Below are positions 14,863-42,989 of a stretch of DNA of 64,000 bases, in pieces. The stretch's first letter is position 1. Each line of letters starts with the position of its first letter. The DNA is taken from positions 74,501-138,500 of the forward strand of contig JAVLUZ010000608.1 of NCBI GenBank assembly GCA_036768485.1, read 5' to 3'. The position numbers and the translations under genes were made by a program. This stretch comes from Mermis nigrescens (Eukaryota > Nematoda > Enoplea > Mermithida > Mermithidae). The notes under the pieces are model-generated. The model was given only the letters and a program-made list of their open reading frames with translations, was not told the DNA's origin and did no database searches.

Positions 14863-15066
14863 TTAAAGGTAAAAATCCGCAACGTTTGTCCTTTTTTACT
14901 TTAAATTGATCACTTTTACTTGGATAAGACACTGTTTTTCTTCTGCAGGCCGCAGAATGCACTTCGACTTTTGCTTTTCTTAGAGAAAGTCTCATTTTTA
15001 GCTTTTTCCTAAGATTTTTGCATGCATAAGTGACTTTTCCCTAGTTCCCATCTTTTACATCCTCAA

Positions 15067-16017
15067 TCAGATAGCGCGATAACGCTACCTATAATATACT
15101 TGGCCACCTTTTTTCTTATTCGTTGATTACAGCGAGTGTGAATTTTGTGTCCCCTCCTCACAGCAACAACGGCACACACCTGGGAGGTGCGGTTTTTTGA
15201 TCGATTGATAATTAAAAAACTCGATCTTAATTTTTTGAAATTTGTTGACACTCAATACCGAGTTAGCAATGAGTGTGTAAAGTGTAACCGTAAAATCAAA
15301 TAATTTGCGGAGGGCCAATTTTTTTTAAATGTTGCCTTTGAGTTTAGTTATTACACATAAGTGTAAAGTATACGTGTTTTTTACTCTTTACGTGTCCCAC
15401 AGCTTTACTGACTCAATTTTGGTTTCTGTGCAGTCGAGTCAGTTTTCTATAATGTAGAGGGTTACATTATCTAAAAATCAATTTTTTTTTGCTTTTTACC
15501 CAATTTTTCTTGATCTGTGATCGTTTTAGTGCAAAGGGTTCGAGACGAAGAAAGAAATTTCTCCAGCTACTCCGCTTAGTAGGCGGAACATGCTGATTAT
15601 GCTAAAAATGTGCCCTTGAGCTAAGCATTACACATTCTAGTTTATTTTATTTCTGTACACCTAATATTGCATTATTAGCGCAAGTGTAAAGTTTACACTG
15701 AGAAGCACTTTTCAGCCCAGAGCATTAGGTATGGTCATTCTATTTTAAAAAATGATCTTCGTAACATCAGAATAACGAATCTGGCATTTAAACTTTTCTA
15801 TAGCCGGAAATCGTTGAGCTGTGAAGAGGTGAGGTTTGAATTATGCACATGTTTGCTAAAGCCAATATTTAACTCCGTATTGCATTTTTGTTGATCAGTT
15901 TTTTATTTTATAGATTTTTGACTCATCTTTAATCATTTTTATTTGCAAACATGCTCTGTTTTGAAGGTTATCTGGAATGAGAAACATGTTTTAAAATACT
16001 ACCTGCAAATTACTTCA
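15067..16017 (+). mobile_element. TCATAGG element, truncated copy E
   Basis: It begins TCAGATAGCGCGATAACGCTA between A and T inside the right tail arm of copy F. The CCTATAATATACTTGG block follows, then CCTCCTCACAGCAACAACGGC and GGAGGTGCGGTTTTTT, parallel to the head of copy A. The GTGTAAAG-rich body follows to about 15720. No tail module is present before copy A starts at 16018, so it is truncated. Confidence 0.6.
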
Positions 16018-18732
16018 TCATAGGTAGCGCGTTAGCGCGTACCTATAATATACTTGGGTACCCCCAACACCTGGGCACCCCCTACAGCTATAACGGGACA
16101 CTTCTGGAAGGTGCGGTTTTTTTTAAAGAAAGATAATAAAAAAATTCGCTGCCCGTGTTTTTTGTTTTTCTTGAAACTCAAAATTAACTGTGTAAAGAAG
16201 GTGTAAAGTTTTTGTGTAACGTTATAACATAGGACAAATTTTGGGACCTTTTTACTGCGGCATGTGGACAACTGAGTTTTGATGACTCGAAGGATTGAAC
16301 AGAATAGGATAATAGAGGGATGAATTCTACAGATGACCCTTTTTTTGTTTTTTGAAATTCGCATTATTTATCGAACGGCAGTGTAAAGAGTGCGAAAATC
16401 TGGGGGTGAAAAAGCACTTTTTGGTCGAGTTTTCAACCTTCCTATGTCCGATACTAACTCCGGTTATTAGGTTTTTAAAATGTTTTCTGACAGAAATGTA
16501 GAGCGGATCAAGGGCTACATTCTGCATATAAGCAAAGTCTTGTATGCTCTATGGTGAGTTAGATCCTGGGGTTTAAAGTTTACACTCTAGTGGATGGTGT
16601 AAAAAAACGGATTTTAACTAAGATTTCTCTGCCAAATTTTTCCGCTTATGAGTCAGTGCAAATCGAAGACAGCATTAATAAAGTGCCTTACAGGGGCTAA
16701 ACATCGCAGCAAACCGCATTTAAAAAAACGCAATATTGAGTTATTTATGGGGGTGTAAAGTTCGAAATCAGAGGTAAAAAATGGGCTAAAAAACACGTTT
16801 TTTCCGAAGTTTGATTGATAAATCATGCCAAATAATTTTTGCAACAGAATTTTGGCACACAGGAATGTACTACGATTTAAAAGCTACAAATTGTACCAAA
16901 CCGAATTTCTTTAAACTCAATGGGGAGTTCGGTACGGAATTTTAAAGTTTACAGTGTTTTAAATGATGGAAAATACGTTTTTGTTGCGTTTTTTGTTCGC
17001 CACTTTCTCCGTCCAGAAGTCGGGATAAGTCTAATAGAATAAAAATAAAGTGCTTTATATCGGGTGCATGTCAAAGCAAATTGTCTATACATTAATATTT
17101 AGCGAGTGTAAAGTCAAAAATTTGGAGTTTTAAATGCGTTTCTGTCTTGTTTTTTCTGCCTGCTTCTCCGGTTACGAGTCAGGGACACGTTTATCAAGTC
17201 TAGAAATGGACCAGGAATCAAATTTGATATGCCAGTCTGGCGCATATGTTTACACTCTACGGTGTTGTAAAGTAGTTTACACCAATTGTTAGTTTGCCCA
17301 TAGAACATTATGTTGACTTAATTTTTTCATAAATATTAATCGTAATATCGGAACAATATCAAAATTACGAATCTGACTAAAATCTTCTTTACACTAGGTG
17401 TTTACATGAAGTTTACACTACATATATATTTATCTTCGTTTTTGAGCATTCCTGAAACCTAATTTTTTCTTGGAGCCTAGAAGGTTTCAAAGGATCAAAT
17501 GTGAGACGTCACGTAGGCGCGTTTGTTTACATCCAACAGTGATGTAAAGTAGTTTACATTCATTGTTTATATGTCCTCAGACCATTGTAGAGACATAATT
17601 TTTTCATGAATGTTGATCATAATATCCGAGTAATTTTTGACACTGCATGTTAGCCTTTGTTCTAGAGCATTGCAAAAATCGAAATTTTTTCCTGAGATAT
17701 AAAAATTTACAGGGAATGAAATATATACGTCAATTGGGCGCGCTTGCTTACACTCAGCAGTATTGCAAAGTGGTTTAAACCTAATGTTTATTGTCTTTAA
17801 AACATTATGGAGACTCATTTTTCCATAAATGTTGAAAGAAATATCGGAGCAATATCAAAATTACGAATCCGACTAAAATATTCTTTACGCTATGTGTTTG
17901 TGTAAAGTTTACGTTACGTGTTAACCCTAATTCGATAGACTTGCAGAGACTTTGTAACTGAAGTCAAGAAATTTTCAAGGATTCATATGTGAGACATCAA
18001 TTAAGTGAGTTTGTTTACCCTCAAAAGTAATCTAAAGTGATTTAAAAATTATGTTCAAGTGTCCTTAGATCATTGAAGAGATGTAATTTTGTCTTAAATG
18101 GGTTGCATTAAAGTTAAATCTTTCTTAGCCGTGTTTATAATATGTTACACAAAATCTTGCACATGGAGAGCTATCGTTTAATTGATGTAAATTGCCTGCA
18201 AAAGTGGTTTAAAATGAACCAGCAATCACACTACTGTGCACAGAAGTCGACAAAGATATACAGCTTTATTGTAATCATGTACATTAATAAGCCGTAAACT
18301 GTTAGTATTCTCTACACCTAGTAGTTGTGTAAAGTTTGCACTATTCATTTGTTGTTAATATGTAGTCTATACTACAAATTTATTTTACTACCAAATCAAA
18401 GCGTTAGTGTTCCTTACATTTGATATTTGCGTGAAGTTTTTGAATTTTTGCCGAAAATCTTTGCCTTCTAATTTACCAACATCCCGCCTTTTCCATTTTC
18501 TTGAAGTTTAAAATCTTTTATAATTCTCTCATAATTTAATGGTAGGTTTTAACTTTAAGTTTCTCTTGGTTTACAACTCTCGCTTAGCAAGCTCATTTTT
18601 CAAAACTTTTTCATAGTGATCAGATTAGTTGCGTTTAGTTTGGAATTGGTGGACGGTCGTTATTTTATTACTCGGCTTAAATAAACCAAGTGACTATCTT
18701 TTGATTATTTTCTTCATCGCAAATTCAAACAC

Positions 18733-18803
18733 CCAATTTTCAATTTGAAAATTGACCAAAATTGATCCAATTTTCAATTTGAAAATTGAAAATTGGGTGT
18801 TTT
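18733..18803. repeat. Palindromic repeat in copy A
   Basis: CCAATTTTCAATTTGAAAATTG is a near-perfect palindrome. It occurs twice here, with a partial third at the right. The matching place in copy D (41836-41925) has three units, the clearest length difference between the two copies. Confidence 0.8.
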
Positions 18804-19107
18804 CAATTTCAAAAGTCACAACACATTGTGCTTGTGTATTGATTGAGTTAGGATTTGCAATGTGAATTCGTTGGTTAAATTTTTGTGCTTGATTATAAGT
18901 GAACTGCACATTAAGAAGAAATAACTTAATGCAGTTTCAATTTGAAAATGGATGGTGTCAATAAGGTTGTCTTGTTTAAAAAGGATAATGCTGATGTTAA
19001 GAACAATATTGTTTTCCGCGTTCTTGGACTGTTGTCATTATTGTGGCATGTTACTGATTGTGTTTACTGACTGATGTACTGAAATCACGCTAATTAAAAG
19101 TAGTGTA

Positions 19108-19872
19108 CTAGCAAAGAAAAATGCTCCGATGGAACAAAAAAGATGAATATACTTGGAATTGTGGATTATTATGGATGTAAAAGGAGGGGACTAGGAAAAA
19201 TCTACCTAAAGTCGGAAAATCTGCTAAAAATCACACTTTCTCTAAGCAACGCAAAAAATCGATGTATATTCTGCGGCCTCTAAAAAAGTGTCTTTTTTAA
19301 ATAATGTTCGAAGTTTCAGATAAGAGTGTATAAACGAAATCTATCAAGGTTACTTTTTTAAATTGCTGGCACCTGATTGATATGTAGAAAAGTAAGAGGT
19401 ATTGTATTTAAAGTTGTTTTGTTTTATGAGCATTATAGCAAGCAAAGCAGGAGCCGATTGATCAGTGCACACAATCGTTTCGGGCATGCTAGTGTATCTA
19501 CATTAAGTCTGTTTCAAGTCAACTTACGTGTTTCCTACTGTTTTTAACCAACCATGTCTTCAATTGTCTTCGATGTTTGCTATTTCATTCAATTGGCTTG
19601 GAAGACTGTTAGTTTACTTAATATCATTTCCCATAGCTACTGCATAGCTAACGTGCTGCTGTTTCAATCATTGTTATGGTTGAATATTTATTTTAATCTG
19701 TTGGCCGCAGAATATACATCAATTTTTGCGTTGCTTAGAGAAAGTGTGATTTTTAGCAGATGTTCCGACTTTAGGTAGATTTTTCCTAGTCCCCTCCTTT
19801 TACATCCATAATAATCCACAATTCCAAGTATATTCATCTTTTTTGTTCCATCGGAGCATTTTTCTTTGCTAG
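19108..19872. repeat. Tail module of copy A: inverted repeat with loop
   Basis: Arms of about 175 bp (19108-19285 and 19697-19872) are inverted copies. The left starts CTAGCAAAGAAAAATGCTCC and the right ends with its complement. TA lies on both outer sides. Inside the arms, AATATACTTGG is also present in the head of the element. The loop (about 400 bp) has no coding frame of note. Confidence 0.8.
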
Positions 19873-20359
19873 TAATAATAATAATTCTTATGTGCGGTCT
19901 TTATCAAACCGATACCAATATTTTTTCTTGTTGAAATCTATGCAAATTTATGTATGTCCATTTTTGTGATGTATGCGGCCCATAAATTTTCTTAAATTAT
20001 TTTCATTTGCTGACGCGTCGACCGGATTGTTTATTTGCGGCCGGAATCGTTCATGTTGTCTTGCTCGACTACTAATTTTTGTTGCTTTCTCGTTCATTGT
20101 TCATTTGCATGCGATTTTTGGCAGCCATCATCGCGTTGCTCTACACACTGATGTATTTTTTGCCCCACGCCTGGCTTTCGCTTGCCGTTTCTGTCGATGC
20201 AGGATTTTACTTTAATTAGGTTAATAAGGTCACTGGCGTAAATTTTTACTCAATAAATTTCTGACTACCGTAATCTTTCTTTCAATGTCCACACTTGAGA
20301 TTGAAGCTTTATACTGTTGAAGAAAAATAAAGACTATTGCTCTTTATCTTTGCTTAAGC
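19873..20359. other. Gene-free stretch
   Basis: It contains an 80-residue frame (19973-20215) of mixed composition with no family match; otherwise nothing recognised. Confidence 0.35.
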
Positions 20360-21444
20360 AAGCTCTAGATTTAAGAGTCAGTTTCTGTAAGGACCACCTT
20401 GACCTTACGTAAGTAAAAAAATAATTTTTCTTAATTTTAACATATATTACACAAATTTTTACGCTTATTCCGAATCTGAAAACCGTTTTACACAAAAATA
20501 ATTTTTTGCTGACTTATAGGGGTGTAAAGTGTGAAAAATCGGAATATGTGCCGAATTTCATATGTTGATTAATATTTTCCAGAATAATTAACATTTTTTA
20601 ATGCAGTTTTTTAAACTACAGAAGATCAAAAAGGCTTCACAAAAAGTAAAAAAAGTTTGTTTACCGGATCATCCCACGGGATACAGCAGTCAATAAAAGT
20701 CAAAAATATGAATTTTTGCACTTGCAACAGTTTTACTTTTTTAGCCATAAATCCAGAGTGGTCATACAGAATCGAACCTTATTTCATCACAATATGTGCC
20801 ACCTATGTACCCATTTTTGTGTAAAAAATGTAGGATATGTGATGGATAGTTATTGACCACTTTCGACAAACGTGAAATTAACTCATGTGTTCAAATTTCA
20901 AAAATGATACATTTGTGCTATAAAAAATTTAACGTTTCGATCTATAACTCCAGAACTGTAGAACATTGTGTGACTGCATTATACCACAGCTTGTACCATC
21001 TATGTGCCTAAGTGCTTGCAAAAGATCATGCGTATACCTTAAGTGGTTGTTGACTATTTCTGACAAACGGTAATTCAACATAATTGGTCAAAGTCGAAAA
21101 AATCATACATGTGTGGAACAAATAACTTTCCTTTTGGAGCTGTAATCCGGAAAATAAAATTCATCTTGTAGCCACATTACACCACAATTTGCACTATCTA
21201 TTTGCCTAATTATATGCAAAAATCCATCCATATGTGCTTGATATTTATTGACCATTTTCTGGAAACGTAAACTTAAATCCATTGTTCAAAATCGAAGAAA
21301 TCACACATTTGTGCTTAGAATAATTTTGCTTTTGAAATTATGCAATAATACACATTCGCATTGATGGGAGAGGTGGATTTGGGTAGAACCCTTTCCCTGG
21401 TACCTTGGAGTTGGATCTCATAATCCTGGGACCACACGTGGGCA

Positions 21445-21600
21445 GCACCAAAATTCTGGGGGGGGGTTGCAAGATTTTTCAAAGGTCAAAAAATGGCCTT
21501 AAAATGGTGGTATGGCAAAAAGACACCATTTTTTAACGTTTCGCATCAAGCAATATCCATCGGCATCAAAAAATTGCGAAAAAAATTCAAAAATGGATTT
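21445..21600 (+). mobile_element. GTGGGCAGC-family MITE, 5' part, at the start of the foldback core
   Basis: CACGTGGGCAGCACCAAAATTCTGG followed by GGTCAAAAAATGG, ACACCATTTTTTAACGTTTC and GGCATCAAAAAATTGCG matches the left 60% of 26046-26312. It abuts the coding remnant at about 21600. It could have removed the gene's upstream part by insertion. Confidence 0.65.
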
Positions 21601-22764
21601 CACTCAGCCAATACGTTGTCATCTATGATGAGTATATCACAAGTCACTGGAATAACTGTGAAAAGGTGGGATTTTAGTGACCCACAATCTGGAAAAAGGT
21701 GATTGTGACCGTGCTGCAGCTGTTATAAAACGGAAAATAAAGCTATTCATTGATGCAAATCATAAATGCACCACAGCAGAAGAATTTATCAACTGCATTC
21801 CATCATATGGTGGTGTGAAAGGAAGCTCAGTCATCTATGGCACTGTGGTGCAAGGAAGAAAGAGTGCTGCTAAAATGAACAACATTAACTTTTTGAACAA
21901 TTTCGTGTTTGAAAATGATGAGATTCGAGCATGGAAATCTTATCAAATTGGATATGGAGCCACCATTCCAAAAAGCTCGTGGTTTGTAAGAGATGGAACA
22001 TCATCATTTAATGTGAATAGTATCATACATCAAGGAAAACAGCCAGGAGAAATTGATCCCAGGACTATCTGGCAACCCATCCTAGAAGAGCCCATGACAA
22101 GGGACCAGTCAACAGCAACATTTGTGCCAGTTTTACCAGAAGAAGAGAGCTCAGCAAGATCCTTGCAACTGTTTACTTGTACTGTTCCTGGTTGCATGAA
22201 ATCATTTCAAAGACATCGATCCCTTGAAAATCACATGGAGTTAGCAAATCACCAGTTTCAGCCCTAGCGACTGACATTGAGTGATGCAGCTATTACAACG
22301 TACAAGAAACAAATAGAAAATTGGCAGCTAATGCCCCGGCTTCCAAGTCTAAATGAAGTTTTGCAGCAATTCTGGGAGATGTACGCAGATGATGATTCAA
22401 TCCAAAGATTACCAACTGGCTGGGCTTTAAGGCAAAAAAGATCTTGTAAAGCATTCACAGAAAACCAGCGCCAATATTTGCTTAAAAAATTTGATCATGG
22501 GATTGAGACTCGAAGAAAGTGCGATCCAAGGAAGACTGCAACTGAAATGCGAAGATTGCCCCAATTCAAGCAATCTGAGTTTTTATCATGGCAGCAAATT
22601 GCAGGATTTTGGTCGCGGGAAGCACGAAAAAGATAAGCAATTGTCCCAACTGAAACTGATGAAGATGACTGCTTAGAAGATTTTTTCCAACCAGACCAAA
22701 ATGTAGATGATGAGGCAGATGATGTTGAAGACACATTGATTCATTCAGAATGTTTTGACAATTG
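21600..22764 (+). pseudogene. Broken C2H2 zinc-finger gene of a repetitive animal family
   Basis: The readable order is: VTGITVKRWDFSDPQSGK in one frame, then GDCDRAAAVIKRKIKLF in the next, a one-base shift in the A-run at about 21694. Then come a GGVKGSS block, LNNF.FE...RAWKSYQIG, a C2H2 finger (FTCTVPGCMKSFQRH..LENH), and after TAG (22265) LPTGWALRQKR and FTENQRQYLLKKFDHGIETR...DP..TATEM...LSWQQIAGFWSRE. After TAA (22634) an acidic tail runs to a stop at 22762. From memory, multi-copy uncharacterised proteins of cnidarians and fish share this WDFS.PQ.GK / C2H2 / GWAL / F.....YL...F..G / DP / QI..F.SR layout. The function is unknown. One frameshift and two nonsense codons mean it is not expressed as one protein. 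Confidence 0.7.
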
Positions 22765-24120
22765 AATTTTGACGATATATAACATATTCCTTTATGTTAG
22801 GATTTTCTACAGGTAAAAATAATAAATAAATATAATCCAACATATATGTATGAATTTTTGCATGCAATTAGGCAAATAGATAGTGCGTGCGAACCGTGGC
22901 GTAGTATGGTCACCAGATAGAGTTTACTTCTCGTTAGAAATAGAAAATAAAATTATTTGAAACAAAAGCATGCATTTTTTCACTTTGACCAATCAGGTTA
23001 AGTTCACACTTGTGAAATATGGCTGATAGATAAGTACGTAACATATGCAGATGATTTTTTGTGTACAATCAGGGACATATATGGTAGAGACTGTGGTGTA
23101 ATGCGCTTAAAAGATGTGTCCTAATTCTTCAGTTACAGAGTCGAAAGAAATTTTTTGAAGCACCAAGGTGTGACTTTTTGATTTTGACCAATGGAGCTAA
23201 GTTTACTTTGTCCACAAATGGTCAATAAATATCAAACATATATGGATGGATTTTTGCATATAATTAGGCAAATAGATAGTGCTAATTGTGGTGTAATGTG
23301 GCCACAAGATGAATTTTATTTTCCGAATTACAGCTCCAAAAGGAAAGTTATTTGTACCACACATGTATGATTTTTTTGACTTTGACCAATTGAGTTCAAT
23401 TACCGTTTGTCAGAAATGGTCACCAACCACTTAAGGTATACGCATGATCTTTTGCAAACACTTAGGCACATAGATGGTTCAAGCTGTGGTATAATGCGGT
23501 CGCACAATGTTTTACAGTTCTGGAGTTATAGATCGAAACGTTAAATTTTTATAGCACAAATGTATCATTTTTCAAATTTTGAAACATGAGTTAATTTCAC
23601 GTTTGTCAAAAGTGGTCAATAACTATCCATCACATATCCTACATTTTTTAAACAGAAACGGATACATAGGTGGCACATGTTGTGGTGAAATAAGTTTTGA
23701 TTCTGTATGACCACTCTGGACTTATGGCTAAAAAAGTAAAAATGTTTCGAGTGCAAAAATTCATATTTTTGACTTTTATTGACTGCTGTATCCCGTGTGA
23801 TGATCCGGTAAACAAGCTTTTTATACTTTTTGTAAAGCCCATTCAATCTTCTGTAATTTAAAAAAACTGCATTAAAAAATGTTAATTATTCTGGAAAATA
23901 TTAATCAACATATGAAATTCGGCACATATTCCGATTTTTCACATTTTACACCCATATAAGTCAGCAAAAAGTCATTTTTGTGTAAAATGGTTTTCAGATT
24001 CGGAATCAGCGTAAAAAGTTGTGGTGTTAAAATAAAGAAAAATTATTTTTTTACTTACGTAAGTCACTATTACAGCAAGGTGATTCTCACAGACATTGAC
24101 TCTTAAGTTTCCTCGAGCTT

Positions 24121-24273
24121 TTCTGGTTTGAAATACATTATGAAAATATTTACGCTAATTTTTAAATCTATCCAACGGGGACTTTTGCGTAGGTTTTTCC
24201 TCTGATTAAGGATAGTTAGATTGCCTTTTTTGTAATGATAATGCAGTGTTTAAGAACAAATTCATGCTGAGAA
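24121..24273. other. Short spacer
   Basis: This lies between the foldback element and the solo tail module. Nothing is recognised. Confidence 0.3.
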
Positions 24274-24409
24274 AAAGCAAGAAAAAATGCTCTGATGGAG
24301 CAAAAAAGGTGAATATAAATGGATTCTTTATTGTTGAGGATGCAAAAGGAGGGGACTAGGGAAAATTTCCCTATACGCGCAAAAGCCGTAAGAAAGCGCT
24401 GAACAGTTA

Positions 24410-24956
24410 TAGTCTGTTTCATTTATCCGAGAGCTTTTTCAGTAAATGTTTTCGGAGGTTACAGTAACCCCTTATTTCTTATTTACTGTAAGTCACTAGA
24501 TCTCACTTTAGCTACGTAGCAAAGAAGGGTTTTTCAATAACATTTTCGCGGCATAATTTATTCTCGTCTTCCAGCAGATCAATTAACTTACTGATAAAAA
24601 TCGCTTATTCATCTTATCCTGAGTCGACACTTCAAACACAATCGACCAAGATGTTAAGAAACGTTGCGAACTCCCGCATAGCTCAGTGGTAAAACCTCTT
24701 GCTTGTAGTCGAAGCAACCCGGGTTCGATTCCAGCCGATAGCTTTTTGTTTAGCGCACTTACTGTAGTATGTCCCAGCACTGATTAAATGCCTAAATCAA
24801 ATTTATTTGGGCGTATTAGTGCATTAAACATGGAAGAATTCTAGCCACTCGCCCTCACTGAGCTGATCTGCCGAAGTACAGTAATTCGTCTTGTTTAGCT
24901 TACTGTAGCCCTTAAAAGAATTGACTAAAAAGCTCTCGAATAAATGAAACAGACTA
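24410..24956. mobile_element. TAGTCTG-family MITE, long version
   Basis: It starts TAGTCTGTTTCATTTA and ends TAAATGAAACAGACTA, flanked by TA on both sides. Inverted arms continue inward (CGAGAGCTTTTT / AAAAAGCTCTCG). The uninterrupted right arm of the host inverted repeat supplies the empty site: CAGTT.GAC there against CAGT-TA-[element]-TA-GAC here. A TA target duplication and short TIRs suggest Tc1/mariner-type mobilisation. It holds a tRNA-like sequence. Confidence 0.8.
24668..24741 (+). pseudogene. tRNA-like sequence inside the MITE
   Basis: It has an A-box-like TAGCTCAGTGG, an anticodon-type hairpin TGCTT/AAGCA around GTAGTCG, and a perfect B box GGTTCGATTCC. Loop position 34-36 would be AGT (Thr). 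The acceptor ends do not pair (TCCCGCA against CCGATAG), the D stem is broken and the T stem is weak. It is more likely a tRNA-derived fragment or dead tRNA than an active gene, although the internal promoter boxes are intact. Confidence 0.45.
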
Positions 24957-25387
24957 TAGACTTCCTCCAAACAACGCAAAAAACGAAGTATATATGTACC
25001 TCGGCGCCTGTGAAAAATCAAGTTTCAGCCACAAAATTTTCACTGTTTCGCAAAGAACAATTGAAAAGCTTTCATGTTTGCTGAACAGTTGATTTATAAT
25101 TTATTTCACTAAACCTTACCTTCCACAATACTCTGATGAAAACAAGATTATCGGAGTGAACTTTACACCTCCAGGCCAACTCAATCCAGTCTATAGAAAC
25201 AAGCATAAGCCACAGAATATACTTCGATTTTTGCGTTGTTTGGAGGAAGTCGAACTGTTTAGCACATTCTTAAGGCTTTTGCATGTATATGGAAATTTTC
25301 TCTAGCTTCCTCCTTTTAGATCCTTAAGAATAAAAAAATCCAAGTATATTCACCTGTTTTGCTCCATCGGAGCATTTTTCTTGCTAG

Positions 25388-25448
25388 TAATGTATGTTAC
25401 AAAGTATATTTGTCCTTTTTGCTCCATCGGAACATTTTTCCTTGCTAG
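25388..25448. repeat. Duplicated 60-bp end of the tail module
   Basis: GTATATT...GCTCCATCGGAACATTTTTC and CTTGCTAG repeat the last 60 bp of the module (25327-25387) in direct orientation with TA at each joint, so the terminus was doubled. Confidence 0.6.
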
Positions 25449-26045
25449 TAATAAGTATTAATTATGTATGAACATCCAATTATTAAATGTAAAGCATTAG
25501 AATTCTGGAAGGTCAGGCCCAAAAAAACATTTATTAAGTGTGTTAATTAAAAAACGATTGACACACGTTCCGGTCTGTACTCGTTCTTTCTAAAACTTTA
25601 AAAAGTAAATTTCGAAAAAAAAACAAGTAAAGAAATCGAATAAATTCAACAAAATATAATTAGGACATAAGTATTCGGCGCGTAGGGCCGAAGATATAAG
25701 TCTCAGGCAGATGTGACTGGAGGCCTTAGTAACCGACTGCTCTTCCTGTATTTGTACATTTGACAATGCATTGAACACGTACAGAGTAACAAAACTATGC
25801 AGAATTAATGTTTGTACGTGATTCAGAAATCGTAAAGATTCATGACAACCTTCTCCGATACAAATCCGATTTGGCACAAAAATATGGCTCCAATTCTAAG
25901 CCGCATTAATAATTACGTATAGTACCTAAATAATAGATAATTATAAAAAAGCGCTGGAAAAATTTGAAATCTCACGATTAACGACGGCCAAAAATTATAA
26001 CAGTGAGTGTGTGCGTGTTGTACAGAAAGAGGCAGCTAGTTACAG
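25449..26045. other. Gene-free stretch
   Basis: A 95-residue - strand frame (25590-25877) has scattered Cys and His but no recognisable domain. It is probably chance. Confidence 0.35.
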
Positions 26046-26312
26046 TTATATGTGGGCAGCACCGAAATTCGGGGGAGGGTGAGAATGAAAAATATTCAAA
26101 GGTCAAAAAATGGTCTTAAAAGTGGTCGTATGGCTAAAAAACACCATTTTCGACGTTTCTCATCGAGCACTATCCATCCAATGGCATCAAAAAATCGCTA
26201 AAAAGCAAAAAAATCTCAAAAATTGAATTCTGGGGGTATTCTGATTTCTGGGGGTATTCCAACTTCTGAGAGTTGCATACCCCCGAAACACCCCCCCATA
26301 CGCCCACGTATG
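26046..26312 (+). mobile_element. GTGGGCAGC-family MITE, full-length reference copy
   Basis: It is 267 bp with imperfect termini TTATATGTGGGC and GCCCACGTATG. GTTACAG is repeated on both sides (26039-26045, 26313-26319), and the octamers AGTTACAG/GGTTACAG agree at 7 of 8. It has G-runs left and a C-run right. At least seven other copies or fragments are in the window (2755, 13575, 21445, 34850, 35200, 36495, 43217). It is non-coding. The 7-8 bp duplication fits hAT-type mobilisation. Confidence 0.75.
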
Positions 26313-31382
<5,070 letters not shown>

Positions 31383-33859
31383 TCATAGGTAGCACGTTAG
31401 CGTGTACCTATAATATACTTGGGTACCCCTAACACCTGTGCACCCCCCTACAGCTATGACAGGACACATCTAGAAGATGCGGTTGTTTTTAAAATATAGA
31501 TAATAAAAAAATTCGCTGCCCATTTCTTTTTGTTTTTCTTGAAACTCAAAACTGGCTGTGTAAAGAAGGTGTAAAGTTTTTGTGTAACGTTTAACATGGG
31601 ATAAATTTTGGGAGGTTTTTTAGGTGGCATGTGGACAACTCAGTATTGACTCCTCAAATAAATTAATGGCACAGATTTTTAGAGGAAGGGATGCTCCAAA
31701 TTAAGCTTTTTTTGTTTTTTTGAAATTCGTATTAGTTCTCGAATGGGAGTGTAAAGAGTGCGAAAATCTGGGGGTGAAAAAGCACATTTAGGTCGAGTTT
31801 TCAACTCGTTTATGTCTGATAATAACTCCGGTTATGAGTTTTTAAAAATGTTTTCCGACAGAAATGTAGAGCGGATCAAGGGCTACAATCTGCTTACAAG
31901 CAGACTTTTCTACGCTCAATAGGGAGTTAGGTCCTGGGGTTTAAAGTTTACACTCTAGTCGATGGTGTAATAAACAGATTTTAACTAAGAATTCTCTGCC
32001 AGCTTTTTCCGCTTATGAGTCGGGCTAAAATGAGTATAACAGTAATCAAACAGCTTCTAGGGGCTACACGTCGCAACAAACTACGTTCAAAAAAACGCAA
32101 CATTGAGTTATTTATGGGGGTGTAAAGTTTGAAATCAGACGTGAAAAATTGGCGAAAAAAACACGTTTTTTCCCCAATTTTGATTGGTAAATCATATCAA
32201 ATAATTTTTGCAACAAAATTTTTGCACATAGAAACATACTAAGACTCCAAAGCTACAAACTGTACCAAACCGAATTTCTTTACACTCAATGGGGAATACG
32301 TTACGGATTTTTAAAGTTTACAATGTTCTGAATGATGGAAAATATGTCTTTGTTTGGGTTTTGTTCGCCACTTTCTCCTTTCAGAAGTCAGGATAGGTCC
32401 AATAGAATAAAAATAAAGTGCCTGGGGTGTATGTCATAGCGAATCGCGTATGTCTAAACCAATATTAAGCGAGTGTAAAGTTAAGAATGGGGTGCTTTAA
32501 ACAGGTTTCTGTCTTGTTCCTTTCTGCCAGCTTCTCCGGTTATGAGTCAGGGACATGATTCTCAAGTCTGTAAATGAACCTGAAACCAAATTCGATACGC
32601 AATTTTGGCGCGTATGTTTACAATCAACAGTTCAGTAAAGTGGTTTAAACCAATGTTAATTTATCCTTACGACATTATGGAGACTTACTATTTTCATAAA
32701 AGTTGGTCGTAATATCGAAGCAATATTAAAATTAGGATTCTGACTAAAATCTTTTTTACACTAGGTGTTAACATATCGTTTACACTACATATTAACATTC
32801 GTTTTAGAGCCTTGCGGAAACCTAATTTTTTCCTTATGACTAGAAATTTTTAAGGAATCAAGTGTGAGAAGTCGGTAAGACACATTTTTCTACACAACAG
32901 CGGTGTAAACTGTTTTACACCTAATGATAATTTGTCATCAGACCATTGTTGAGACGTGATGTCTTTATAAATGTTGATTGTAATATCCGCGTAATATCAG
33001 GTTTACGAATCCGACTAAAATCTTCTGTGCATTCTGTTTATGTAAGTAAACACTGCATATGAACTTTTGACCTAGAGCCTTGCAAAAACATAATATTTTT
33101 CTTGAATTCAAAAGAACAATAAATCAAGTGTGAGATGCCAGTTGGGCGCGTTTGTTTACAATGACGCTTTTCAAAAAGTGGTCTTATAACGATTAGAACA
33201 TACGTTTTGGCTTACTGTTGATGCTACAGTCTTATGTATTTCATGTAATTCTGTGCATGATAATCAAATTTCAGCTCATTATCAAGTGACCACAGATGTG
33301 ATTGAAAATTGCCTACAGTAATATAGTTTTGAAAAGTAAACATTCATGTGTCATGTAATTGTTAAGTACAATATTATTATTATTGCTTCAGCTAAAGTCA
33401 CTTCAGTTTTTTGAGTACAGTGATTCAAAAATTGTTATTCATGCATGTTGCTCCGCATTCATAATGGTTTGCTTTAGACATTGTTATAAGTGATAGGACG
33501 ACTTTTTTACACGTTATAACATAGCGGTACCACTGAAATACGCTAGCGGGGGGTCTCTATACTACTGCGTTATAATACATGTGTAAATTTATCATAAATG
33601 CTTTGATCCGCAGGTAATTGATTTTTCGTTCTTTGACTTGTTGAATAAGCTTAATTACTGTACGTAGTGTTAATGCGGGTATTGATTGAGTGAGTTGAGC
33701 GAATGCGAATGGAATATTGCGACTACTGCTTCTCATGCAACTTTCTCGCAGCCTTCAAGGCTAAAATTGGTCTACAAAATTTTCCTACTGCAAGAGATAA
33801 AGAATTAAGCGCTACTAGGTAGAGATGAAAAGTCGTGGCCCGACAACCCGACCCGATCA

Positions 33860-34060
33860 GGGCTGGCAAAAACCCAGATTTGAAAATTTCGCGTTTTTGG
33901 GTTTTTGGGGTTTTCGTGGGTGTATGGGGTTTTTCGTGGGTGTTTGGGGTTTTTGATGGGTTTTTGGGGGTTTTTGGTGGGTTTTTCCTGATATAGGTAC
34001 ATCAGACTTGACTGTTTACATACCTACACTTAAAAATATTGACTCGGCTGACTTTGTGAC
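33860..34060. repeat. GGGTTTTTGG repeat, shared with 56215
   Basis: GGGCTGGCAAAAACCCAG begins a run of imperfect GGGTTTTTGG/GGTTTTCGTGG units ending GGGTTTTTCCTGATA. The same order, including GTCTACATAC...ACATTGACTCGGCT after it, occurs at 56215-56360. It is a dispersed element that contains a minisatellite. Confidence 0.65.
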
Positions 34061-34849
34061 ATACCTAGCCAAGAAATAATGTTGCCACTTGAACGACGCA
34101 TGCATTTTACTTGGAAATGCGTGTTTCTTAGGTCCATTAGCCAGTGCATTGCTGCGGGCAGTCAACTTTATCGGACTAAATAAGAGTCAGCGAGAAGTAA
34201 AATGACAAAACGTGAGATTATTTGTTGAAGTTGCATCATGGTCGAAGTAAGCAACGATCATAAGTGATAAGTGAATTCCAGCTTGAGCACAGAAAATAAT
34301 GCTGCTTCGAACTTCAGCTAAATAATATAGCAAACGCGCGGAGTCGGAATATAATTCATACACAATGCAAGTATAAATTGCTAAGATGGAAGCAGTACCT
34401 AATGACATTCGCTACAACACTGACAAAGATAGGAATAGCTACTATTTTTTGCTAACAAAAAGTTGGGTACTAGCAAGAAAAAATGCTCCGATGGAACAAA
34501 AAAAGGTAGAATATACTTGGAACAAAGAATTATCAAGGACGTAAAAGGAGGGGACTAGAAAAAGCTACTATCTACAAATGTCACAAAATTTGCTAAAACT
34601 CAGAAATTCCCTGAACAAAGAAAAAATGAAAGTAAGTAAATCAAAGAAAAAACCTACCTGTGCCTAAAACTGCAAGATCTGCTAAAAATCAGACTTTTTC
34701 TAAGCAACGCGAAAATCGAAGTATATTCTGCGGCCTGCAGAAGAAAGCAGCATCCTGTCGAACAAAGATAAAACATTGGGCTAGATAACTGAACCACTCA
34801 CTCTGCAAAAGCAGATATCGCCATAGCTGAGCAGCGCCATGTTGCAATA

Positions 34850-34950
34850 TTTTTCTGGGTTAAAAAATAGTAATTATGGTATGTTGGAAAAACGCAATTT
34901 TCGACGTTTCTGATCGAACACTGGTGCATACCCCTATCCTCCCATGCCTA
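34850..34950 (+). mobile_element. GTGGGCAGC-family MITE fragment
   Basis: AAAAACGCAATTTTCGACGTTTCTGATCG, read in parts, and the end CATACCCCTATCCTCCCATGCC match the middle and right end of 26046-26312. The central part is missing. Confidence 0.5.
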
Positions 34951-35199
34951 ATGGTTATCAGTTTACATGGGCAGGAATGAAATCCGGGTGGTCTCGTGGA
35001 ATTAAACGCCAGAAGAGTACTGAATGGACGCGTGTATTATATAGAAATCACAGTCTTTCGTTGCGGTATCGCAAATAATCATAGGATATAACTTTTTGTA
35101 ATATTTATCTAGCCACGATATCGAATAAATTAACGTTGCAAGTGATTAGCAAAAACCCAGACTTGAGATTTATTTTATAAGCTTTATTTTAAGCATTGG

Positions 35200-35465
35200 A
35201 CACCATACCTAGACGTAGGGGTTTGGGGAGTATGCACCCCAAGGCAAAAAACCCAACAAGAAAACGCAAATACCCAACAATACCTCCAGAATTCAATTTT
35301 TTAAATCTTTCTGCTCTTTTTGGGTTTTTTTTGGTAGGTACCAATAGATAGAGCTCGACAAGAAACGTTCAAAAATGGTGTTTTCTTCGCCATAGCACTA
35401 TTTTTAAGGCCAATATTCCAATTTGAAAACCCCCCTTAGAATTTTGGAACCGCCCACTGTGTGGT
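35200..35465 (-). mobile_element. GTGGGCAGC-family MITE in the loop of the copy C tail
   Basis: This is a - strand copy: AGTGGGCGGTTCCAAAATTC at the right, AACGTT and CACCATTTTTGAACG inside, and a G/C-rich end with CCTAGACGTAGGGG at the left. It is diverged but near full length. Confidence 0.6.
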
Positions 35466-35760
35466 GGACAATATGAGAAGGTTAACCTATTTTTCAGAGG
35501 CTGCAGAATATACTTCGATTTTTGCGTTGCTTAGAAAAGTCTGATTTTTAGCAGATCTTGCAGTTTTAGGCACAGGTAGGTTTTTTCTGTGATTTACTTA
35601 CTTTCATTTTTTCTTTGTTTAGGAAATTTCTGAGTTTTAGCAAATTTTGTGACATTTGTAGATAGGAGGTTTTTCTAGTCCCCTCCTTTTACGTCCTTGA
35701 TAATTCTTTGTTCCAAGTATATTCTACCTTTTTTGTTCCATGGAGCATTTTTTCTTGCTA

Positions 35761-36494
<734 letters not shown>

Positions 36495-36720
36495 AAATTT
36501 GTTGCAAGATTTGTCAAAGGTCAAAAATTGCCTTAAAAATCATTGTATGACGGGAAAAATACCATTTTGCAACGTTTCTCATCGAGTACTATCCATTGGC
36601 ATCAAACCATTGCGAAAAAAACAAAGAAATTTTCAAAAATTGAATTCTGGGGAGGGGTATTTTGGTTTCGGAGTGAATATCCCCAAACCCGCATGCCCAC
36701 TTATGATTGTAACATGTTGT
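36495..36720 (+). mobile_element. GTGGGCAGC-family MITE, 5' truncated
   Basis: It reads AAGGTCAAAAATTGCC, ACGTTTCTCATCGAG, ATTGGCATCAAA, AATTCTGGGG and a terminal GCATGCCCACTTATG. It lacks the GTGGGCAGC end. Confidence 0.65.
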
Positions 36721-37559
36721 CAAAAACTATTACGGACATTTATAGAATTATTTAAAAAATCAGAATCACATTTTGAGTTACACATATTAAAAAAGAATAT
36801 GAAGTGCAGAGTAATGATCAAAATCAGACTAATTCGACTCAGAATGTCAGGATATTTTATTAATAAAATTCTCTAATAAAAAATGGTTGCCAAAATGACC
36901 ACGTTTTTAGCAACAGGCGTTAAATGAAACGTCGAGTAACTTGAAAATCATCATATTTTCAAATCTGTGACTTGTGAGTCGATGCGGCAATGTATTTTCC
37001 TATCTTTGTTCGCAGGTACGTTTATACATTTGATCCATCATTCGGCATGTGAAATGTTGTTGAGGTATATAGGTATTGTAGGAGGCTTTTGTAAGAAAAA
37101 CGAAAAAAATATAATGGCAACTTATAGACGTTAAGGAAGTTAATGTGCTTGAAATTGTCCAATTTAAAATCATTTTGTTTTAAAATGACAAATTTTTTCT
37201 TATTCAACTCCTTTAAGAAGTATCCACAAATTTAATTCAGTCATTAAAAAACATTGTAATGACAACTAAATTTTTGACTTGCTGCTCAGTAATTTAGTTC
37301 TTCGTTTTTCACAAGGGCTAACAAATTTTATTTGAGACAAGAAAAAACCGCGTGATTTTAGTTTAAACCTGTTCAAATTGAAAATTTCACAGTACATTAC
37401 GTTTCTTATAAATGTCTATTTCTCTGAAATTTCAATAAAATGCATTAATAATGTGTCGAAGTAATACATTGGCAGCCAAAAATTATTGGGGTCCGATAGG
37501 GCAAAATCGAGAAAAATAGCACCAGAAATTCAATTCTAGGTGGTCTATCGGATTTGTCC
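36721..37559. other. Gene-free stretch
   Basis: No recognised feature. Confidence 0.4.
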
Positions 37560-37990
37560 TAATTTACAAAAATCCTGAATCTGCCGCTGTTTTGCTCACA
37601 TGCAATGGTAGATTTATCATTAAAAAATGATTAGGCGCAATAGAGGTAATGCGTATTTTTCGCTTAAGCCATTTTTTATCATGATTTTTAAAATTTACGG
37701 ACTCTCGAGCCTCTCAAAAATCTTATTTTTGTAAAAAAATAGTTTATTGACAAAACAAAGATTTTTTAATTATTTAAATGATTAAATCGAGTATTTCTTT
37801 AGCGCTTTGTGCACTAATTCTGCGCGTTTTTTGCATGAAACTCTTGAAAACTTCCAACTCTTTTCGAATCACAAATAATACTGTCTATCAAAAGACGGCG
37901 AAGAAAGGTTACTTTAAGCGAAACGGACAAATTTTTTTGCCAACTTTTGACGCTATCAGGAAAATTTGTTGTTCCGTGTACAGCATGAGT
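37560..37990 (+). repeat. Dispersed repeat shared with 8300-8785
   Basis: This is the second copy of the repeat described at 8300-8785. Here a frame of 89 residues (37778-38047) happens to be open, but the other copy has no equivalent frame, so it is not treated as a gene. Confidence 0.6.
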
Positions 37991-38224
37991 ACTTCGGGGG
38001 CATGCGTCAGGTGGAGGAATTTTACAAAAAGTGCTTTTTTAGGTTAAAAACAATGAAAACATGTCATAAAAATAAAAGTGAACAAATAATACTAAAAAAA
38101 TATGCATATCGCGCGAAGCGCCGGAAATTTGAGACTTTTGAGTGAAAAATGAGATAAAATTGTGTAAAAGGCACACTTTTTACAATTTTTACAGAAAATC
38201 GACAATTCTGGAGTGGAGGTCGCA
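37991..38224. other. Short gene-free stretch
   Basis: TCGCGCGAAGCGCCGG at 38108 is the GC-rich palindrome that also recurs at 53330-55900, so a relic of that hAT-like family is possible here. Confidence 0.35.
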
Positions 38225-38873
38225 ACCATCCTACGGGGGGGTGGGGGGTTGGTTAGCCTGGCCAGTGTTCGATCGCTTGCGCGAGCCGAACCAATACTCA
38301 ACCAAAAAACAAAGTGCGACACTTCATTTAGAGATGAAGCAACAAACCAACGGGTTTGAGCGCAAAATGAAGGGCAAACCCAACCCGTAAATCCTATTAA
38401 TGAAAAAGATAGGGAGAAAGAAATAGCATGATAAGCATATGTAACCACACATGGAGCCTAGGAGAAACGGGAGAAACGGCGAAAACATGATAAGCGTAGG
38501 TAACCACACTCGGAGCCTGGGAAAAACGGGAGAAACGACAAAACACCCGGAGCAGGAGAAACGTGAGAAATGGCGAAATTATGATAAGCATAGGTGAAAC
38601 GCGAGAAACGGTGAAACCATTGATGGGAGAAACGTTGCCCTCAGGAGAAACGTTTCTCCCGGGAGAAACGTTTCTTTCACCAGGGGAAATTTTGATGGGA
38701 GAAACGTTTCTCCCACCGGGTAACACTAGTAGGATTTACGGGTTGGTCAAAAAGTTAAGAGCTAAACATATTTTGGAACTTAATGAGCGTGTAATTGCCG
38801 CCTCACCTAAAATACTCCCACTTAACAAAGAGGCCCTGGCGGCCCAAAGGGATCTCCGTGGGACGTCTGGACA
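38225..38873 (+). repeat. SINE-like copy 1, split by a TIR element
   Basis: It shares with 44660-44900: CGATCGCTTGCGCGAGCCGAAC, read in parts, ACTCAACCAAAAA, AGAGATGAAGCA, TTTGAGCGCAAAA, then after the insertion AGAGCTAAA, GAGCGTGTAATTGCCGCCTCA and CCCAAAGGGATCTCCGT. The order of the last block differs from the other copy. GC content is well above background. It has no coding frame. Confidence 0.6.
38380..38746. mobile_element. TIR element with palindromic minisatellite
   Basis: Perfect 17-bp inverted ends CCAACCCGTAAATCCTA / TAGGATTTACGGGTTGG interrupt the SINE-like repeat. Similar 17-18 bp of host sequence (GCAAAATGAAGGGCAAA / TCAAAAAGTTAAGAGCTAAA) lie on both sides, suggesting a long target duplication. 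The interior is built of GGAGAAACG words, several as the palindrome GGAGAAACGTTTCTCC. Confidence 0.65.
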
Positions 38874-39122
38874 CAGGGCCGTGCTTAGAGGTTTAGCGGC
38901 CCTGGGCGAAACTTATTTTGGCGGCCCCCATAATTTTTAAAACTGGTATTATAGGCATCATAATTATCACTTATGTATATCCTTTACATATGTACCTATA
39001 TGATCGCAGTTAGCATCTTACTGTAGATTTACTAACAAAATATTGTGCTACATTATTTTTAGTAGGTATCGTATGTTTTTTCTCAAATAATTTACCTATT
39101 TTGTGAATGATGACGTGCTTTA

Positions 39123-42100
39123 TCATAGGTAGCGCGTTAGCGCGTACCTATAATATACTTGGGTACCCCCAACACCTGGGCACCCCCTACAGCTATAACG
39201 GGACACTTCTGGAAGGTGCGGTTTTTTTTAAAAGAAAGATAATAAAAAAATTCGCTGCCCGTGTTTTTTTGTTTTTCTTGAAACTCAAAATTGACTGTGT
39301 AAAGAAGGTGTAAAGTTTTTGTGTAACGTTATAACATAGGACAAATTTTGGGACCTTTTTACTGCGGCATGTGGACAACTGAGTATTGATGACTCGAAGG
39401 ATTGAACAGAATAGGATAATAGAGGGATGAATTCTACAGATGACCCTTTTTTGTTTTTTGAAATTCGCATTATTTATTGAACGGCAGTGTGAAGAGTGCG
39501 AAAATCTGGGGGTGAAAAAGCACTTTTTGGTCGAGTTTTCAACCTTCCTATGTCCGATACTAACTCCGGTTATGAGGTTTTTAAAATGTTTTCTGACAGA
39601 AATGTAGAGCGGATCAAGGGCTACATTCTGCATATAAGCAAAGTCTTGTATGCTCTATGGTGAGTTAGATCCTGGGGTTTAAAGTTTACACTCTAGTGGA
39701 TGGTGTAAAAAAACGGATTTTAACTAAGATTTCTCTGCCAAATTTTTCCGCTTATGAGTCAGTGCAAATCGAAGACAGCTTTAATAGAGTGCCTCACAGG
39801 GGCTAAACATCGCAGCAAACCGCATTTAAAAAACGCAATATTGAGTTATTTATGGGGGTGTAAAGTTCGAAATCAGAGGTAAAAAATGGGCTAAAAAACA
39901 CGTTTTTTCCGAAGTTTGATTGATAAATCATGCCAAATAATTTTTGCAACAGAATTTTGGCACACAGGAATGTACTACGATTTAAAAGCTACAAATTGTA
40001 CCAAACCGAATTTCTTTAAACTCAATGGGGAGTTCGGTACGGAATTTTAAAGTTTACAGTGTTCTAAATGATGGAAAATACGTTTTTGTTGCGTTTTTTG
40101 TTCGCCACTTTCTCCGTCCAGAAGTCGGGATAAGTCTAATAGAATAAAAATAAAGTGCTTTATATCGGGTGCATGTCAAAGCAAATTGTCTATACATTAA
40201 TATTTAGCGAGTGTAAAGTCAAAAATTTGGAGTTTTAAATGCGTTTCTGTCTTGTTTTTTCTGCCTGCTTCTCCGGTTACGAGTCAGGGACACGTTTATC
40301 AAGTCTAGAAATGGACCAGGAATCAAATTTGATATGTCAGTCTGGCGCATATGTTTACACTCTACGGTGTTGTAAAGTAGTTTACACCAATTGTTAGTTT
40401 GCCCATAGAACATTATGTAGACTTAATTTTTTCATAAATATTAATCGTTATATCGGAACAATATCAAAATTACGAATCTGACTAAAATCTTCTTTACACT
40501 AGGTGTTTACATGAAGTTTACACTACATATATATTTATCTTCGTTTTTGAGCATTCCTGAAACCTAATTTTTTCTTGAAGCCTAGAAGTTTTCAAAGGAT
40601 CAAATGTGAGACGTCACGTAGGCGCGTTTGTTTACATCCAACAGTGATGTAAAGAAGTTTACATTCATTGTTTATATGTCCTCAGACCATTGTAGAGACA
40701 TAATTTTTTCATGAATGTTGATCATAATATCCGAGTAATTTTTTACACTGCATGTTAGCCTTTGTTCTAGAGCATTGCAAAAATCGAAATTTTTTCCTGA
40801 GATATAAAAATTTACAGGGAATGAAATATATACGTCAATTGGGCGCGCTTGCTTACACTCAGCAGTATTGCAAAGTGGTTTAAACCTAATGTTTATTGTC
40901 TTTAAAACATTATGGAGACTCATTTTTCCATAAATGTTGAAAGAAATATCGGAGCAATATCAAAATTACGAATCCGACTAAAATATTCTTTACGCTATGT
41001 GTTTGTGTAAAGTTTACGTTACGTGTTAACCCTAATTCGATAGACTTGCAGAGACTTTGTAACTGAAGTCAAGAAATTTTCAAGGATTCATATGTGAGAC
41101 ATCAATTAAGTGAGTTTGTTTACCCTCAAAAGTAATCTAAAGTGATTTAAAAATTATGTTCAAGTGTCCTTAGATCATTGAAGAGATGTAATTTTGTCTT
41201 AAATGGGTTGCATTAAAGTTAAATCTTTCTTAGCCGTGTTTATAATATGTTACACAAAATCTTGCACATGGAGAGCTATCGTTTAATTGATGTAAATTGC
41301 CTGCAAAAAGTGGTTTAAAATGAACCAGCAATCACACTACTGTGCACAGAAGTCGACAAAGATATACAGCTTTATTGTAATCATGTACATTAATAAGCCG
41401 TAAACTGTTAGTATTCTCTACACCTAGTAGTTGTGTAAAGTTTGCACTATTCATTTGTTGTTAATATGTAGTCTATACTACAAATTTATTTAACTACCAA
41501 ATCAAAGCGTTAGTGTTCCTTACATTTGATATTTGCGTGAAGTTTTTGAATTTTTGCCGAAAATCTTTGCCTTCTAATTTACCAACATCCCGCCTTTTCC
41601 ATTTTCTTGAAGTTTAAAATCTTTTATAATTCTCTCATAATTTAATGGTAGGTTTTAACTTTAAGTTTCTCTTGGTTTACAACTCTCGCTTAGCAAGCTC
41701 ATTTTTCAAAACTTTTTCATAGTGATCAGATTAGTTGCGTTTAGTTTGGAATTGGTGGACGGTCGTTATTTTATTACTCGGCTTAAATAAACCAAGTGAC
41801 TATCTTTTGATTATTTTCTTCATCGCAAATTCAAACACCCAATTTTCAATTTGAAAATTGACCCAATTTTCAATTTGAAAATTGATCCAATTTTCAATTT
41901 GAAAATTGAAAATTGGGTGTTTTCAATTTCAAAAGTCACAACACATTGTGCTTGTGTATTGATTGAGTGAGGATTTGCAATGTGAATTCGTTGGTTAAAT
42001 TTTTGTGCTTGATTATAAGTGAACTGCACATTAAGAAGAAATAACTTAATGCAGTTTTAATTTGAAAATGGATGGTGTCAATAAGGTTGTCTTGTTTAAA

Positions 42101-42989
42101 AAGGATAATGCTGATGTTAAGAACAATATTGTTTTCCGCGTTCTTGGACTGTTGTCATTATTGTGGCGTGTTACTGATTGTGTTTACTGACTGATGTACT
42201 GAAATCACGCTAATTAAAAGTAGTGTACTAGCAAAGAAAAATGCTCCGATGGAACAAAAAAGATGAATATACTTGGAATTGTGGATTATTATGGATGTAA
42301 AAGGAGGGGACTAGGAAAAATCTACCTAAAGTCGGAAAATCTGCTAAAAATCACACTTTCTCTAAGCAACGCAAAAAATCGATGTATATTCTGCGGCCTC
42401 TAAAAAAGTGTCTTTTTTAAATAATGTTCGAAGTTTCAGATAAGAGTGTATAAACGAAATCTATCAAGGTTACTTTTTTAAATTGCTGGCACCTGATTGA
42501 TAGAAAAGTAAGAGGTATTGTATTTAAAGTTGTTTTGCTTTATGAGCATTATAGCAAGCAAAGCAGGAGCCGATTGATTAGTGCACACAATCGTTTCGGG
42601 CATGCTAGTGTATCTACATTAAGTCTGTTTCAAGTCAACTTACGTGTTTCCTACTGTTTTTAACCAACCATGTCTTCAATTGTCTTCGATGTTTGCTATT
42701 TCATTCAATTGGCTTGGAAGACTGTTAGTTTACTTAATATCATTTCCCATAGCTACTGCATAGCTAACGTGCTGCTGTTTCAATCATTGTTATGGTTGAA
42801 TATTTATTTTAATCTGTTGGCCGCAGAATATACATCGATTTTTTGCGTTGCTTAGAGAAAGTGTGATTTTTAGCAGATTTTCCGACTTTAGGTAGATTTT
42901 TCCTAGTCCCCTCCTTTTACATCCATAATAATCCACAATTCCAAGTATATTCATCTTTTTTGTTCCATCGGAGCATTTTTCTTTGCTAG
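39123..42989 (+). mobile_element. TCATAGG...CTAG element, copy D
   Basis: It is 3.87 kb and nearly identical to copy A along its whole length, with scattered single-base differences and one extra palindrome unit. It is inserted between A (39122) and T (42990), the T being the last base of a stop codon of the hAT gene read on the - strand. The tail module is at 42228-42989. Near identity with different flanks shows that this family moved recently. Confidence 0.8.
41836..41925. repeat. Palindromic repeat in copy D
   Basis: Three units of CAATTTTCAATTTGAAAATTG, against two and a partial in copy A. Confidence 0.8.

Follow-up and report, generated by a model that had tools for sequence, protein, structure and literature searches.

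How Helitrons mark their 3′ end and make their second strand is still poorly understood. Here we describe non-coding copies of a rolling-circle transposon, most likely of the Helitron class, in a stretch of 64,000 nucleotides of the nematode Mermis nigrescens (GenBank assembly GCA_036768485.1, contig JAVLUZ010000608.1, positions 74,501 to 138,500). This whole stretch is called the window, and coordinates given without a locus refer to it. Four copies, A to D, were analysed, and in each of them the right end occurs twice, once inverted and once at the outer boundary, as the two arms of a long inverted repeat.

Canonical Helitrons (Helitron1) are recognized by a 5′ TC, a 3′ CTRR, a short hairpin 10-12 nt from the 3′ end and insertion at A^T without a target-site duplication, and their autonomous members encode a Rep (HUH, two tyrosines) together with a Pif1 helicase; Helentrons and Helitron2 elements are told apart by a TT or T-rich target, subterminal or asymmetric inverted repeats and an AP endonuclease domain on the Rep/Hel protein. 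Several described systems resemble this family; each is cited here from a portion of its published text. The lepidopteran Hel-2 elements (BmHel-2 / OnMITE01) are non-autonomous, have a 5′ TC, a 3′ CTAG, A/T flanks and a 3′ hairpin, and carry a 5′ inverted repeat as well as subterminal inverted repeats (PMC4344730). Helraiser / Helibat1 shares the TC...CTAG ends, insertion at AT, a palindrome near the 3′ end, and ends joined precisely head to tail (PMC4778049). The DINE-1 / HINE elements and Helentrons are likewise non-coding, with subterminal inverted repeats, a 3′ stem-loop and, in some cases, internal tandem repeats (PMC4067079). FoHeli, the Helitron2 of Fusarium oxysporum, features an asymmetric inverted repeat whose 3′ copy lies 38-51 nt from the end, and two of its groups start with TCAG (PMC5148889).

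Four Copies and Their Terminal Signals

All four window copies read A|TCATAGG ... GCTAG|T on the forward strand, as an earlier note based on the letters of the window had reported. Their boundaries, read directly, are 16018-19872 (A), 27910-31138 (B), 31383-35761 (C) and 39123-42989 (D). Over their full length, copies A and D show 98.7% identity, with different flanks, while the 5′ parts of B and C are 85% and 82% identical to that of A. Copy B sits in a (TA)n run, and C is flanked by such runs, the left of which it has in common with B. The body was described in the earlier note as a satellite-like array; the array is real and covers only part of the unit, about 17201-18100 in A and 29138-29882 in B. 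In A it consists of diverged units 70-74% alike, with self-matches between 17201-17612 and 17700-18100 and between 17217-17352 and 17494-17629. No stop-to-stop frame overlapping the four units exceeds 153 amino acids, a scan of the window with Rfam (at gathering scores) and ARAGORN returned no Rfam family and no tRNA, and a 26-base piece of the left end gave 0 matches in viral_contigs.

Both termini carry recognizable signals. In A, a 5′ hairpin at 16020-16046 (stem ATAGGTA.CGCG / CGCGTACCTAT; -15.8 kcal/mol) is followed at 16047-16057 by the motif AATATACTTGG, whose exact inverse, CCAAGTATATT, stands at 19824-19834, all on the plus strand. Among 200 shuffles, an energy as low as that of the 5′ hairpin was reached 0 times for A, 4 for B, 0 for C and once for D. 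The two motifs form a subterminal inverted repeat of 11-12 nt, exact in its pairing, that starts 30 nt from the 5′ end and 39 nt from the 3′ end (the inverse occupying nucleotides 39-49 from the 3′ end in A, C and D and 39-50 in B); it was matched by 1 of 500 shuffles for A and by none for B, C and D. Closer to the 3′ end, A has a small hairpin, TGTTCC-ATC-GGAGCA (19844-19858, plus strand), which is followed by TTTTTCTTTGCTAG. It has a 6-bp stem and a 3-nt loop and, in A and D, stands 14 nt from the end; it is weaker in the other two copies, B and C, where the best 3′ fold is a different one. The earlier note had held that a long inverted repeat replaces this small hairpin, a view that finds no support here: the hairpin sits inside each arm of that repeat.

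The Mirrored Right End

From left to right, the terminal structure of each copy consists of an inner, inverted right end, a loop and an outer right end, with arms of 170-270 bp and loops of 420-760. In A, the inner arm (19108-19278, minus strand), the loop (19279-19702, plus) and the outer arm (19703-19872, plus, ending in CTAG) follow each other directly, and 168 of 170 aligned bases are identical between the arms, with one gap. The corresponding inner (minus) and outer (plus) arms lie at 30323-30506 and 30955-31138 in B (181/184 identical), at 34470-34736 and 35498-35761 in C (96.3% over 269), and at 42228-42398 and 42819-42989 in D (100% over 172). Expressed as within-copy arm identity, C and D score 165/169 and 170/170, and the range over all four copies is 97.6-100%; between copies, arm identity among A, B and C is 80.8-90.6%.

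When 19 loops were aligned to that of L019 (loci in the genome are given L numbers), the loop of L014 matched over its full length on the opposite strand at 97%, and that of L010 had an additional, partial match on the opposite strand. The loop of the element inserted in L061 is also inverted relative to those of A and B. Loops have thus been flipped, in L014 and in the L061 element, and we therefore conclude that the arms exchange sequence. Copies L018 and L021 have a common private change present in both arms. Only the leftmost 130-155 bases or so of the L061 element and roughly its last 900 match A or D, so that the body of these elements is evidently replaceable.

Copies Across the Genome and Their Insertion Sites

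The host assembly comprises 524 Mb in 860 contigs. Searched with the first 200 bases of A, it yielded 1827 first-look candidates, of which 40 were scored (all at 99-100%) and 20 of these fetched. The left end was present in all 20, and both the inner inverted and the outer right end in 19. In L017 the element runs only to its base 2250, where it abuts a further copy missing the first 33 bases, and the L017 stretch stops before any right end. Fetched copies measure 2777 to 3932 bases. Two pairs, L015/L020 and L022/L023, have identical flanks and were each counted once. In L010/L003 two copies are joined precisely head to tail, CTAG|TCATAGG, a type of junction found in Helraiser circles (PMC4778049, from the cited portion).

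For a tally of ends and flanks we dropped the repeat sightings L020 and L023 and the tandem L010, and added the four window copies and the L061 element. An A precedes the element in 20 of 22 cases, and a T follows it in 17 of the 20 with a readable right flank. The TC and CTAG ends claimed for the family hold at the left, where TCATAGG opens 19 of the 20 fetched copies (L018 has ACATAGG), and less strictly at the right, where 16 of 21 elements, window copies included, close with CTAG.

The most direct evidence on the mode of insertion is an empty site. Locus L061 reads ...GATATTGATGTA[element]TATC..., and its uninterrupted paralogue L060 reads GATATTGATGTA|TATC...; the element has split A and T precisely, with 0 bases gained or lost, in a target that already had TA on both sides before the insertion. 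That target is a Helitron Rep gene. One-sided junctions in L049 and L044, at two other places in the Rep gene, also fit insertion at A^T.

Insertions of the non-autonomous family in the Rep coding sequence of another Helitron lineage were thus seen in L044 (3021), L049 (2384) and L061 (29-3827). Three such cases may be more than chance, reflecting either a targeting of related elements or dense regions that the two share. A second recurrent setting is the neighbourhood of (TA)n or similar AT microsatellites, as beside B and C in the window (27673-27910, 31139-31383, 35762-35957) and in L017, L018, L027 and L059.

Rep-bearing Relatives

The Rep family PF14214 had 32 matches in the same genome and 0 in 14 control genomes. 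One Rep lineage, which includes L059, L060, L061 and L062 among others, has a stretch of YITTY pattern that we read by eye as two catalytic tyrosines, and L062 adds a PIF1 helicase match of 82.8 bits, above the Pfam cut-off. Downstream of Rep, a mirrored right end was found at three of the four loci of this lineage that were read at length, in a sequence other than that of A-D. Its arms measure 179 bp in L060 (99.4% identity), 312 bp in L059 (96.5%) and 173 bp in L061 (with L066; 94.2%), are 72-81% alike between the three loci, and gave no blastn match to A-D at E 1e-4. The outer ends at L059, L060 and L061 read GAGCATTTTTCCA(A)CTAG|T, and a counterpart of the small 3′ hairpin is present in these right ends beside Rep genes. 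A similar stretch, T..C.ACTTTT, lies next to the inner CTAG in copies A to C, in the L061 element and at L059, L060 and L061. When one end type is compared with the other, 10-12 of 16 positions agree, for which a simple simulation gave chances of 0.007 to 0.0002 per pair, the pairs not being independent and the stretch having been picked after looking.

Another Rep type is represented by L063 and L064; neither an inverted repeat (E 1e-5) nor an A-type end was found in 9.9 kb of the former or 9.0 kb of the latter. An open frame of 1932 amino acids in L063 (3607-9402, minus strand) includes Helitron Rep and PIF1 helicase domains and represents a second type of Helitron in this assembly.

Two fragments at the loci of the first lineage deserve mention. 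A diverged A-type right end in L059 (3801-3859, minus strand; 28.7 bits) separates the Rep frame from the other type of mirrored end and possibly links the two end types. The second, a left-end-like fragment of 50 bases in L061 (6426-6475; 39.8 bits), has the Rep match on one side and the helicase match on the other.

Other Features of the Window

Diverged pieces of the family occupy 13307-15066, a stretch from about 15067, and 24276-25448. The first, copy E (13307-15066, plus strand; left end at 38 bits), appears to have its right end cut where the left end of the second, copy F, starts (15067-15181, plus strand; 23 bits, preceded by A), and F apparently lies within the right arm of its neighbour E as a nested copy. 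The third, a relative that we call G (24276-25387, plus strand), has its inner, inverted right end at 24276-24327 and its outer one extending to 25387; the profile detected no left end for it. A second right end follows directly 3′ of G in tandem (25389-25448, plus strand). Two right ends in a row accordingly occur both in the non-coding family (25330-25448) and in a Rep-bearing setting, within each arm of L059.

In the loop of G, near a nested inverted repeat, 24668-24745 looks tRNA-like by eye and is not accepted by ARAGORN. Elsewhere in the window, two adjacent open frames of 201 and 122 amino acids with one stop between them (21662-22636) have a C2H2-like zinc-finger pattern by eye, and 38412-38675 holds tandem units and an 18-bp self-complementary repeat, GGGAGAAACGTTTCTCCC.

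Discussion

Assigning these elements to a class, and their unusual right end to a role, are questions to which the present data offer answers of different strength. The earlier note had taken the units for a non-autonomous Helitron-like family, and this reading is now well supported, since it draws on an empty site at A^T read on both sides, two copies joined head to tail, insertions at many independent places, and Rep loci with a similar right end. We consider it very probable that A-D belong to a family of non-autonomous TC...CTAG Helitrons that insert between A and T by a rolling-circle route, with Rep and helicase supplied in trans; as to which Rep drives the family, this is something that we infer.

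A number of observations weigh against this reading or parts of it. Firstly, the small 3′ hairpin, judged by its energy, stays within what chance allows (for A and D, 21-22 of 200 shuffles were as low), and five of 21 copies depart from CTAG by one base: L016 ends in CCAG, L018 and L021 in CTAC, and L019 and L025 in CTAT, the register of the last base in the latter four being extrapolated from the profile. As the last G is replaced in four of the five, 3′ cleavage may occasionally be one base off. Secondly, only one empty site, that of L061/L060, could be read on both sides. Thirdly, the absence of target duplications proposed by the earlier note is borne out at that site and in A; D has TTA on both sides, and B and C, within TA runs, are unreadable in this respect. 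Both flanks are readable in 17 copies that lie outside TA runs; six of these (L011, L014, L021, L022, L024 and D) show a flank repeat of 3-4 bases, more than chance would give, and 11 show none of at least three. Random re-pairing of flanks gives a mean of 1.7, with six or more in 50 of 20000 trials, and such repeats occur naturally at 4.3% of the 4380 A^T sites of the window and at 5.0% of the 2819 AT-rich ones. Either some insertions duplicated a few bases, or sites that are locally repeated (TTA|TTA, TAA|TAA, TACA|TACA) are preferred, as would be consistent with the TA-run insertions. Taken together, the microsatellite insertions and the flank repeats suggest a preference for locally repeated AT-rich sites.

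The remaining points concern the Rep-bearing loci and the arms. The earlier note had looked to a Rep/helicase element for a decision on the class; none sharing the TCATAGG and right ends of A-D was found. Nor did motif and hairpin scans of L059, L060 and L065 find the left ends of Rep-bearing elements. At L061 the helicase match (Pif1 2B, 22.4 bits) falls just below the Pfam cut-off, the gene is interrupted, and the inner CTAG reads CAAG. At L062 no mirrored CTAG end was detected: its 105-bp inverted repeat shows none of the CTAG signal, and a mirrored-end profile found nothing there. In L060 and L059 the Rep frame is not followed by a match to the protein's next part, so that the mirrored end at these loci could belong to a neighbour. 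Finally, in 21 A-type copies (the 19 fetched ones together with A and D, two pairs being the same insertion), differences between the arms are mostly confined to one arm, as would be expected if the changes arose after insertion.

What the mirrored end does is a harder question. On a single strand, the last bases, CTAG, would pair with their inner counterpart at the base of a stem of at least 170 bp. Such a stem would place the 3′ cleavage site at its foot and serve as a strong termination signal, and folding of a single-stranded intermediate, or recombination between the arms, would keep them alike. We put this forward tentatively, at somewhat less than an even chance. Termination at the foot of the long stem in the displaced strand is the most likely role, an idle duplicate being about as likely.

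An idle duplicate would imply that the mirrored right end is functionless, a chance inverted duplication in an ancestor that ordinary gene conversion and inversion have kept alike, and this, too, falls a little short of an even chance. Sequence exchange between nearby inverted repeats is general, and the flipped loops display exchange of just this kind. The design is, however, common to Rep-bearing loci whose arms are without a blastn match to A-D, and the likeness beside the inner CTAG in both end types (10-12 of 16, chosen after looking) suggests constraint.

Termination at the stem foot can also be extended to a more elaborate proposal. In rolling-circle plasmids, single-strand origins start second-strand synthesis. 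By analogy, the mirrored end might be a working part of the element, whose long stem, with 3′ cleavage at its foot, would end rolling-circle displacement and provide a built-in start for the second strand, repeated folding and repair keeping the arms identical. We regard this fuller version as rather unlikely; were it true, arm identity would be a record of the single-stranded intermediate. A long mirrored right end common to non-coding copies and to Rep-bearing loci offers a natural setting in which to test hairpin-dependent termination and single-stranded intermediates, as well as a strong signature for finding further elements of this design.

Two alternatives concern the nature of the family itself. 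It is improbable that A-D are of the Helentron/Helitron2 type (DINE-1-like) rather than canonical Helitrons. Subterminal inverted repeats, a 5′ hairpin and internal tandem repeats are indeed as in DINE-1 and Helitron2 (PMC4067079 and PMC5148889, in part). A protein search with the Rep frame of L060 also returned four proteins, one of which, P0004 (29% identity), has an OTU domain (PF02338), a domain reported for Helentrons in the cited part of PMC4067079. Yet TC, CTAG and A^T are canonical signals, the TT or T-rich site of Helentrons was not encountered, and Hel-2 Helitrons, according to the text cited from PMC4344730, combine TC/CTAG and A/T flanks with subterminal inverted repeats. Another of the four proteins, P0003 from Parnassius mnemosyne (32% identity, with 31% of the query covered), has Rep and PIF1 domains with no endonuclease listed.

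The weakest alternative is that the long inverted repeat is an independent TA-flanked miniature inverted-repeat transposable element (CTAGCAAAG...CTTTGCTAG, with a TA duplication) that landed in an older repeat, the whole being amplified otherwise; although the arms are symmetrical and, in A, B and C, TA stands before the inner arm and after the outer end, we reject it as highly implausible, given that D, L011, L012, L013, L022 and L028 have something other than TA as their outer flank, that 19 of 20 fetched copies combine the inverted repeat with the same 5′ end, that the whole unit is one insertion event at the L061 empty site, and that L060 and L059 have the same arrangement with other arm sequences and no TA before the inner CTAG.

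Comparison with Known Systems

With A-D read as canonical, non-autonomous Helitrons, the differences from described systems can be stated concisely. Among the matches listed in a literature search, no title or abstract start described an inverted duplicate of a Helitron right end, and the mirrored arrangement looks like a new layout for the end of such an element. The Hel-2 consensus is about 250 bp long, and the cited portion of its description mentions no inverted right-end duplicate (PMC4344730). Helraiser has a 19-bp palindrome 11 nt from its end (PMC4778049, in part), whereas the hairpin of our family comprises 15 nt, lies 14 nt from the end and is enclosed in a long inverted repeat. DINE-1 elements and Helentrons differ in their TT insertion and T-rich ends (PMC4067079, in part), compared with A^T, TC and CTAG here. 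The FoHeli groups that start with TCAG end in ATTTT, and a long mirrored right end is not mentioned in the part of PMC5148889 cited. The earlier note had singled out the family as a candidate for an undescribed system, and this can be upheld for its structure only: the terminal signals are already known and, as far as the cited text of PMC4344730 goes, match those of Hel-2-type Helitrons, while the mirrored right end is a variant of the Helitron end.

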